NCBI RefSeq assembly: GCF_007671725.1 | Contig: NZ_VCNM01000001.1 | Location: 124,001 to 188,000 of the forward strand | Source of the DNA: Halorubrum depositum | GTDB lineage: Archaea > Halobacteriota > Halobacteria > Halobacteriales > Haloferacaceae | Length of the DNA: 64,000 nt | Reading direction: 5' to 3' | Part shown: piece by piece, positions 15,621-63,333 of the stretch | How positions within the stretch are numbered: the first letter of the stretch is position 1 | Layout of the letters: the number at the start of each line of letters is the position of its first letter | Translations under genes and position numbers: made by a program | The notes under the pieces: generated by a model | What the model was told of the DNA's origin: nothing | Databases searched by the model: none | Seen by the model: the letters and a program-made list of their open reading frames with translations, nothing else

Positions 15621-16005
15621 TTTATAAATATTTGTTTACAAATAATCGCAGTGGCGCGCGCCTGCGAGCGCCCATCGGGCGCGAGTCAGCGCGCGCGAGG
15701 GAGGTCGCTGGCGCCGACGGCGCCAGCGACGAGGCTGGGGAGGCGTGAGGCGCGGGGCTGTGCGGTTGCGGGGTGGGACTCAAAGGGGCAGCCGCGAGGA
15801 CGGCGCAGGCGACGGAAGCACTACAGGGAGTGAGCGAAGCGAACGACCGAAGCGCGTGGTTCGAAACGGCTCCGCCGTTTCGTCATCACGAGACGCCTTT
15901 GGCGTCTCGAACGACAGCGAGCGTGCGCCGTCCTCGTGGCTGGGGCTTTGGAGGTGTTCAGCGTCGCTCACCGGCTGACTACTTATAAGGCATAGACGAC
16001 ACCGA
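15621..16005 (+). ncRNA. Candidate structured RNA element, copy 1 of 3
   Basis: This fills most of the 475-bp gap between the Vms1-like gene and the DUF5802-like gene. Parts in order: AT-rich promoter-like sequence (15621-15647); a two-part helix with outer arms GCGCGCGC (15654-15661/15689-15696) and inner arms GCGCCC/GGGCGC (15668-15682); a perfect 12-bp hairpin with arm GTCGCTGGCGCC (15704-15730, loop GAC); the core GAGGCTGGGGAGGCGTGAGG (15731-15750); and a long stem CAAAG, GGG internal loop, CAGCCGCGAGGACGGCGCA (15781-15807) paired with 15924-15950. Two triloop palindromes (15862-15882, 15889-15909) sit inside the stem's loop. It ends with TATAAG (15984) and ACGACACCGA (15996-16005). No protein is encoded. 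Confidence 0.65.
15862..15909 (+). repeat. Two triloop palindromes inside copy 1
   Basis: Arms CGAAACGGC (15862-15870/15874-15882, loop TCC) and CGAGACGCC (15889-15897/15901-15909, loop TTT) are perfect 9-bp palindromes. They lie 3' of the conserved GAGTGAGCG segment, whereas copy 2 has its pair 5' of it and copy 3 has none. They therefore look like later insertions. Confidence 0.75.
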
Positions 16006-34213: not shown

Positions 34214-34609
34214 TATTATAAACGAACTGCGGTGGCGCGTGCCTGCGAGCGCCCGGTTGGGCGCGAGTCAGCACGCGCGAGAGAGCTCGGTCGTCCGGAG
34301 CAACGCGGAGGACGACCGACGAGGCTGGGGAGGTGTGAGGCTGCGGTCGCTGTGCGGGGCGGGATCCAAAGGGGCAGTCGCGAGGACGGCGCAGGCGTTC
34401 ACGAGAGCGGAGCTCTCGTGAGCCAATCAGAACGCTTCGCGTTCTGATGACGACGTAAGCACTGCAGGGAGTGAACGAAGTGAACGACCGAAGCGCACAG
34501 CGAGCGTGCGCCGTCCTCGCGGTTGGGGCTTTGAACGAGTTCTCCGTCGATCTCTCCTCGACTACGTATAGCCGAACGACGAGGGCTTCGTATAAGAGAA
34601 CGACACCGA
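34214..34609 (+). ncRNA. Candidate structured RNA element, copy 2 of 3
   Basis: It occupies the 519-bp gap between the DgcN-like and DUF5785-like genes. TATA-like TATTATAAACGAAC (34214-34227) is followed by a two-part helix (outer GCGCGTGC with GCACGCGC, inner GCGCCC with GGGCGC), a hairpin with perfect 10-bp arms TCGGTCGTCC (34287-34296) and GGACGACCGA (34310-34319), the core GAGGCTGGGGAGGTGTGAGG (34321-34340), and the long stem CAAAG, GGG, CAGTCGCGAGGACGGCGCA (34367-34393) paired with 34507-34533 through two G-U pairs. Two triloop palindromes lie inside the loop. It ends with TATAAG (34591) and ACGACACCGA (34600-34609). No protein is encoded. Confidence 0.65.
34399..34448 (+). repeat. Two triloop palindromes inside copy 2
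   Basis: Arms TCACGAGAGC (34399-34408/34412-34421, loop GGA) and ATCAGAACGC (34426-34435/34439-34448, loop TTC) are perfect 10-bp palindromes. They lie 5' of the conserved GAGTGAACGAAGTGAACGAC segment, opposite to the position of the pair in copy 1, and have unrelated sequence. Confidence 0.75.
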
Positions 34610-62952: not shown

Positions 62953-63333
62953 TCTTATAAACGAACGGCGCGGTGCCGTGCGGTGGCGCACGCCGTGAGC
63001 GGGCCGAAGGCCCGCGAACGACCGTGCGAGGGACGCGGTGAGCGCTCGAAGAGCGCGAACCGCGAGGCTGGGGTGGTGTGAGGTGCTGTGCGGAGCGGTG
63101 TGGGGTGGGACTCAAAGGGGCAGTCGCGACGACGAAGGCGGCCGAAGTAAGCACCGCAGCGAGTGAGCGGAGCGAACGAGCGAGGAGCGCACCGAGGCCC
63201 CCGAGTCGTCGCGACTGGGGCTTTGGAGGCGGTCACCACGCTGTCAACGAGTGGTTATAAGGAAGTGGCTGGACTCGGCGGCCGTCCGTCGAGCCGTCGC
63301 CAGCGACAGCTTATAAGCAACCGACGACACCGA
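62953..63333 (+). ncRNA. Candidate structured RNA element, copy 3 of 3
   Basis: It fills most of the 514-bp gap between ctaA and the next gene. CTTATAAACGAAC (62953-62965) is a TATA-like start. The first helix has outer arms CGCACG/CGTGCG and inner arms GCGGGCC/GGCCCGC (loop GAA). The second hairpin has outer CGCGGT/ACCGCG and inner GCGCTC/GAGCGC (63034-63064, loop GAA). The core is GAGGCTGGGGTGGTGTGAGG (63064-63083). The long stem CAAAG, GGG, CAGTCGCGACGAC (63113-63133) pairs with 63205-63225. This copy lacks the inserted triloop palindromes. It ends with TATAAG (63312) and ACGACACCGA (63324-63333). Confidence 0.65.

Follow-up and report, generated by a model that had tools for sequence, protein, structure and literature searches.

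Introduction

Bacterial dispersed repeats such as BOX and REP/BIME are modular and intergenic, form stable RNA folds and carry variable numbers of sub-units, while the large structured RNA classes OLE, ROOL, GOLLD and HEARO have elaborate conserved folds, with functions that were unknown at discovery. The element described here was found in a window of 64,000 nucleotides (the whole stretch of DNA analyzed) from Halorubrum depositum. Similarly to BOX and REP/BIME, it is a modular intergenic repeat with a stable RNA fold and a variable sub-unit number; unlike them, it spans a whole archaeal order, has its own promoter-like box, and keeps its fold among paralogs that differ by approximately 25%. 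With the large RNA classes it shares an elaborate conserved fold, whereas it matches no Rfam model and reaches up to approximately 100 copies per genome, against one or a few in those classes.

Palindrome-associated transposable elements (PATEs) and SMRs are known from haloarchaea (PMC3119063) and, like the element, are dispersed, non-coding, palindromic and too short to encode a transposase, with small elements inserted in palindromes. The element stands apart from them through its near-invariant core and a fold of several covarying parts, through a TATA box in a set position, through a G-U excess on one strand, and through sites that are kept between species. The sense-overlapping RNAs, or omegaRNAs, of IS1341-type TnpB genes, reported in work cited in PMC10544981, are likewise haloarchaeal RNAs linked with palindromes; the copies in the window differ from them in standing alone, without an adjacent tnpB. 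No phage record matched the element, and a connection with the PATE of the Halorubrum virus HRTV-DL1 (PMC10544981) was rejected for this reason. Rfam 15 yielded no match to the element at the gathering threshold, and at E<10 nothing beyond chance-level hits that did not exceed 14 bits (two copies, searched at a permissive threshold), and no published description of the family was found in the open-licence literature, although a subscription paper may exist. An earlier interpretation of this DNA, made without database searches (hereafter the sequence-only reading), knew of no named RNA family with these parts, and neither Rfam, phage records nor the literature contradicted it. A known transposon family, which would have refuted it, was not matched either, but MITE- and PATE-like features leave a mobile origin possible. 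Dispersed modular folded repeats are thus already known; an order-wide archaeal one combining a promoter-like box, a covarying fold and module exchange appears to be new.

Results and Discussion

Anatomy of the element

The sequence-only reading had placed three elements, with the same order of parts, at 15621-16005, 34214-34609 and 62953-63333. Both places and order held: the window contains three instances of the 20-nt core, with 0-1 mismatches each, where chance would give 0.01, and a covariance model matched copy 1 at 15648-15958 (187 bits), copy 2 at 34229-34541 (184 bits) and copy 3 at 62980-63233 (206 bits), all on the forward (+) strand. The elements had, however, been equated with the whole gaps (385, 396 and 381 bp), and the element proper is shorter, the model match covering approximately 250-310 bp.

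In copy 1, the TATA-like boxes TTTATAAAT and TTTACAAATA lie 5' of the element (15621-15644; sequence and family-wide upstream TATA enrichment), followed by the conserved GCAGTGGCG and hairpin P1, with a tandem-GA inner loop, and then GCGAGGGA (15648-15703; sequence, covariation and model match). The exchangeable hairpin P2, formed by GTCGCTGGCGCC and GGCGCCAGCGAC (15704-15730; sequence and comparison of copies), precedes the near-invariant core GAGGCTGGGGAGGCGTGAGG (15731-15750; core search and invariance among copies), a G-rich linker of variable length (15751-15780) and the long stem CAAAG-GGG-CAG...CTG-GGG-CTTTG (15781-15950; sequence, covariation and model match), within which alignment with copies lacking it delimits an inserted double-hairpin module (15857-15915). 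The 3' tail GGAGGTGTTC with a positioned TTATAA closes the copy (15951-15988), and was defined, as the linker, by sequence and comparison of copies. Copy 2 begins with the TATA-like box TATTATAAA (34214-34222; sequence and upstream TATA enrichment) and continues with GCGGTGGCG and hairpins P1 and P2 (34229-34320; sequence and model match), the core GAGGCTGGGGAGGTGTGAGG (34321-34340; core search), the long stem (34367-34533; sequence, alignment and model match) with a double hairpin inserted at approximately 34399-34452, and a tail with the TATA-like GTATAAG (34534-34596; sequence). In copy 3, a TTATAA box (62955-62960; sequence and enrichment), kept in the sister copies L404 and L405, is followed by GCGGTGGCG and hairpins P1 and P2 (62980-63063; sequence and model match), a block swapped as a unit in L405, the core GAGGCTGGGGTGGTGTGAGG (63064-63083; core search), the long stem CAAAG...CTTTG (63113-63225; sequence and model match, with a compensatory pair change in L405), and a tail with a degenerate second tail unit and TTATAAG boxes (63226-63317; sequence and sister comparison). 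Double hairpins are therefore inserted in the long stem of two of the three window copies (copies 1 and 2); such modules recur inside element hairpins elsewhere (L092, L093 and L125), and call to mind the small mobile repeats of Haloquadratum, whose targets are palindromes.

Side-by-side comparison of 32 copies and an alignment of 27 defined the general anatomy. A Halorubrum copy is a unit of approximately 250 nt that starts with a TATA box, then GCGGTGGCG, then the two-part hairpin P1, whose inner loop consists of tandem G-A mismatches, and then GCGAGGGA; hairpin P2 comes next, is interchangeable, and varies in sequence from copy to copy. Located 3' of P2, the G-rich core GAGGCTGGGGAGGYGTGAGG (consensus GAGG(C/T)TGGGGAGG(C/T)GTGAGG) is near-invariant, most of its positions being 98-100% identical in 220 copies. 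A G-rich linker of variable length leads to the long stem, which opens with CAAAGGGGCAG, closes with CTGGGGCTTTG and, towards its tip, alternates 2-bp helices with G-A mismatches; its interior differs in 182 of 183 copies. The tail GGAGGTGTTC follows, with a TATA-like box approximately 41 nt downstream of the start of TGGGGCTTTG, and some copies hold two to five tail units.

Several further observations concern single parts. The tail unit of approximately 57 bp (GAGCGRCTGGGGCTTTGGAGGTGTTC...TTATAAGC) is repeated three to five times in tandem 3' of the long stem in L128, L135 and L127, most units carrying a TATA-like box. The inside of the long stem is inverted between unchanged outer arms in L133, as read directly, and in L202 and L186, as judged from overlapping opposite-strand model matches. 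The invariant G-runs of the core (core and linker, e.g., 63064-63117) would suit a two-quartet RNA G-quadruplex, a structure to which the molar potassium inside haloarchaeal cells should lend great stability. GTGGGACTGAAAG appears to resemble haloarchaeal CRISPR repeats, presumably by chance. Pairing of the GGAGGTG found in core and tail with the anti-Shine-Dalgarno sequence was considered and rejected by eye, as the tail variants GGCGGTG and GGTGGTG break it.

Copy number and distribution

The family is far larger than the three copies originally proposed, a figure that is wrong approximately 20-fold for the genome. Searching the Halorubrum depositum genome at the DNA level added some 40 places to the three in the window, and a covariance model derived from 27 of its copies gave 78 matches, which are spread over three contigs and both strands and of which approximately 59 exceed 100 bits; the genome thus holds roughly 60-80 copies, and a sister genome gives 84 model matches. 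Extending the model search to other haloarchaeal genomes, as had been suggested as a check, recovered many members: matches were present in 118 of 148 sampled genomes of the family and in 159 of 194 of the class, whereas in a sample of the phylum every match lay within the same order and no member was found outside it. Copies number from 1 to about 100 per genome, with up to 95-99 matches in single genomes outside Halorubrum. Other genera have the same 5' domain and core (GGCGCGYGC, GCGAGGGAYGA, CGGCTGGGGAGG, GGGTGGGACTGAAAGGGGC), and in some genera the long stem occurs alone or in inverted pairs with matching ends. In L255, L267, L275 and L259, from other genera, the inverted long-stem pairs or ends share inverted termini (AACCAGAAAGCCCC or CACCTCGAAAGCCCC), in a MITE-like manner. 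Few plasmids matched the Halorubrum form of the element, and some copies are partly deleted (L120, L132, L414).

This distribution bears on the main rival to a family of RNA genes, namely a mobile element of a non-autonomous kind (MITE-, PATE- or REP-like), relying on a transposase that is supplied in trans, e.g., of the IS200/IS605 type, and that would recognize the hairpins in single-stranded DNA. We hold this explanation to be possible, if rather unlikely. It would account for a high and variable copy number and for the inverted pairs of long-stem units with matching ends (AACCAGAAAGCCCC / GGGGGCTTTCTGGTT) in other genera; in Haloquadratum, moreover, PATEs are common, and their near-terminal palindromes serve as targets for small inserts (PMC3119063). 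Against it, no transposase was found, by Pfam domains, among the six genes flanking the window copies, and in the plasmid neighborhoods that were read an IS200/IS605 tnpA lay near one copy only. No terminal inverted repeats were noticed on reading the ends of Halorubrum copies, which was not a systematic test, and inverted ends were seen only in the paired long-stem units of other genera. A core that is invariant over dozens of species is not what a mobile element would lead one to expect either.

A covarying fold on one strand

Hairpins that differ in sequence and still pair perfectly had been taken as covariation, the mark of a selected fold, and large further samples agree with that view. 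RNAalifold, applied to 27 copies of the genome, returned 52 pairs, 31 of which show double-sided changes. In an alignment of 96 copies, made up of the three in the window and 93 that come from named genomes of the order (Halorubrum for the most part), 97.4% of 4221 cells are paired, 39 of the 52 pairs have double changes, and covariation amounts to 0.290, as compared to 0.107 +/- 0.003 in shuffled alignments, none of 500 shuffles reaching the observed value in any measure; sliding the partners by 1-3 columns lowered pairing to 30-43%. Sixty copies from other genera and plasmids gave similar values (94.4% paired, 44 of 52 pairs with double changes, covariation of 0.369 vs 0.103). Both the 96- and the 60-copy alignments were fitted to the model, which favors the structure and inflates the effect size somewhat; the double changes, however, are real letters. 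G-U pairs outnumber A-C mismatches by 125:4, 337:36 and 137:27, and the strand downstream of the TATA box is therefore the one that folds, as a single strand.

The asymmetry fits an RNA, but would equally fit single-stranded DNA handled by a transposase, since top-strand hairpins of a mobile element could also favor G-T over A-C. It fits much less well with a site acting at the DNA level (a cruciform, a chromosome-organizing or a recombination site), in which the complementarity of the arms would stem from template switching rather than from selection on RNA. Almost perfectly complementary arms, an inner stem that is sometimes inverted and copies scattered over replicons would agree with such a site; neither a double-stranded site nor arm correction, though, predicts a ratio of 125:4 on one strand, and the conserved unpaired core and the TATA box would be left unexplained, which makes this explanation most improbable. 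Altogether, selection on a single-strand, RNA-like fold is strongly supported by covariation across dozens of species together with the excess of G-U over A-C.

The upstream TATA box and neighboring genes

A strict TATA motif was present in a 24-nt upstream window in 20 of 35 copies from the genome and in 58 of 162 other copies, as compared to 0 and 2 in a control window. The strict motif is thus limited to about a third to a half of the copies; the box lies within a narrow range of distances and is kept between sister species while the surrounding bases change. The sequence-only reading regarded the elements as probably transcribed, and this positioned and conserved box supports the proposal only indirectly, in the absence of transcript data. 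A TATA box that stays in place speaks against a mobile element, and the upstream enrichment of the motif favors the RNA over the single-stranded DNA interpretation. Of the properties by which a stand-alone non-coding RNA gene may be recognized, the element has a selected RNA secondary structure and, judged from sequence alone, a promoter of its own; transcription itself is inferred.

Regarding genomic context, 15 of 36 copies from the genome are flanked by converging genes and 6 by diverging ones, while 10 point the same way as both neighbors and 5 the opposite way to both, with neighboring genes called by a simple GC3 rule. A leader or riboswitch is ruled out by these mixed orientations, which also argue against a 3'-end element (a transcription terminator, or a processing or stability element) of the preceding gene. 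For the latter it can be said that the upstream gene runs in the same direction in 25 of the 36 copies; in the remaining 11, including all three in the window, it points away, and the TATA box stands between gene and element, whose fold is far more elaborate than that of a terminator, so that we give this possibility very little weight. The downstream gene is on the opposite strand in 20 of the 36 copies. Four of the six genes flanking the window copies have Pfam domains (a VLRF1 release-factor-like protein, DUF5802, DUF1611 and DUF5814) and two have none. Overall, the copies are not tied to any fixed neighboring gene.

Stable sites and exchanged hairpins

Many species carry the element at the site of window copy 1, and seven lack it there. 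In the sister genome G162, whose flanking sequences are 90-97% identical, 26 of the 36 copies occur at shared sites. At the 15 of these sites with both flanks matched, the elements themselves are only 72-93% identical, which is near the value for unrelated copies within the genome (about 75%); the mean identity of orthologs also took in seven weak pairs of L055 matched on one flank. Whole hairpins have been exchanged within conserved sites, so that orthologs resemble each other hardly more than paralogs do: in alignments with the sister genome, entire hairpins are swapped, both versions fold, and the TATA box stays. Copy 3 illustrates this course of events most clearly. It is nearly unchanged in G139 (about 96% identical), while in G165 (about 91%; L405) P1 and P2 have been replaced, with GCGGTGGCG and GAGGCTGGGG as the exact limits of the exchange, and the long stem is the same except for one G-C pair that has become C-G, with changes on both arms; in G151 the site is empty, with a 67-bp gap between matched flanks. 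Identical P2 hairpins also occur at different loci and in different species. Taken with the shared sites and the swapped hairpins, this indicates that sites are stable and that modules appear to move by recombination.

Empty sites at the positions of two window copies are again what a mobile element would produce. The near-identical copies that recent bursts of MITEs leave behind were not seen, however, as paralogs within the genome are only about 75% identical and so many sites are common to the sister species. Comparison of full and empty sites disclosed no target-site duplication, and the flanks are too diverged for a sharp boundary to be defined.

A related region on plasmids

A conserved non-coding region of approximately 480 nt, matching 162 haloarchaeal plasmids, ends at its 3' side in the same long stem, has no Rfam match at E<1, and possibly represents a separate large RNA of plasmids. 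In all nine such records opened (plasmid loci L315-L323) it lies beside a divergent gene for an OB-fold protein of approximately 290 aa, which matches 199 plasmids and whose OB part resembles archaeal SSB structures. The Halorubrum depositum genome has such a pair of plasmid-type region and OB-fold gene on contig C4 (L417). In addition, an ordinary copy (L016 / L418; C3:80594-80859) is divergent, by reading of the sequence, to a replication factor A-like gene and its partner, an arrangement that matches the one on the plasmids; given some 45 or more sites, this neighbor can be due to chance. The OB-fold association suggests where a single-strand-binding partner might be sought, but does not show that there is one. 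One could speculate on an order-wide ribonucleoprotein system of dozens of redundant RNA genes with exchangeable hairpins, in which the invariant G-rich core and the 3' stem would bind a single-strand-binding protein (OB-fold/RPA-like), with single-stranded DNA or R-loops as the site of action, the plasmid RNA and OB-fold gene being its mobile counterpart; as a specific proposal, we consider this improbable.

Proposed explanation

On balance, the element is probably a multicopy family of stand-alone non-coding RNA genes, each transcribed from a promoter of its own, which selection on fold and core maintains, recombination shuffles, and which most likely act in trans. RNA polymerase would start at the TATA box just 5' of P1 and produce an RNA of approximately 250 nt, predicted to fold into P1, the interchangeable P2, a single-stranded G-rich core and linker, and the long 3' stem. 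Fold and core are under selection and most likely bind a protein, a partner that is inferred, while recombination among copies would keep swapping whole hairpins. Action in trans, presumably as part of a ribonucleoprotein encoded by many redundant genes, is likewise an inference, and the most likely one because the copies are not tied to a neighboring gene. The RNA-gene interpretation is weakened by features that suit a mobile element, namely the variable copy number (1 to approximately 100), absent sites, partial deletions and inverted inner stems, as well as by the limited share of copies with a strict TATA motif and by the lack of a known protein partner. Both could also be true in succession, a former mobile element now being under selection at the RNA level.

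Conclusions

The family, which occurs in most of the haloarchaeal genomes sampled and is apparently unnamed, would rank, if transcribed, with the most abundant families of structured RNA known from archaea. An RNA structure that is kept despite the exchange of whole hairpins between sister species offers a case for studying the evolution of RNA genes by recombination, and the family can be put to the test directly in Halorubrum species that are in culture, some of them accessible to genetic manipulation.
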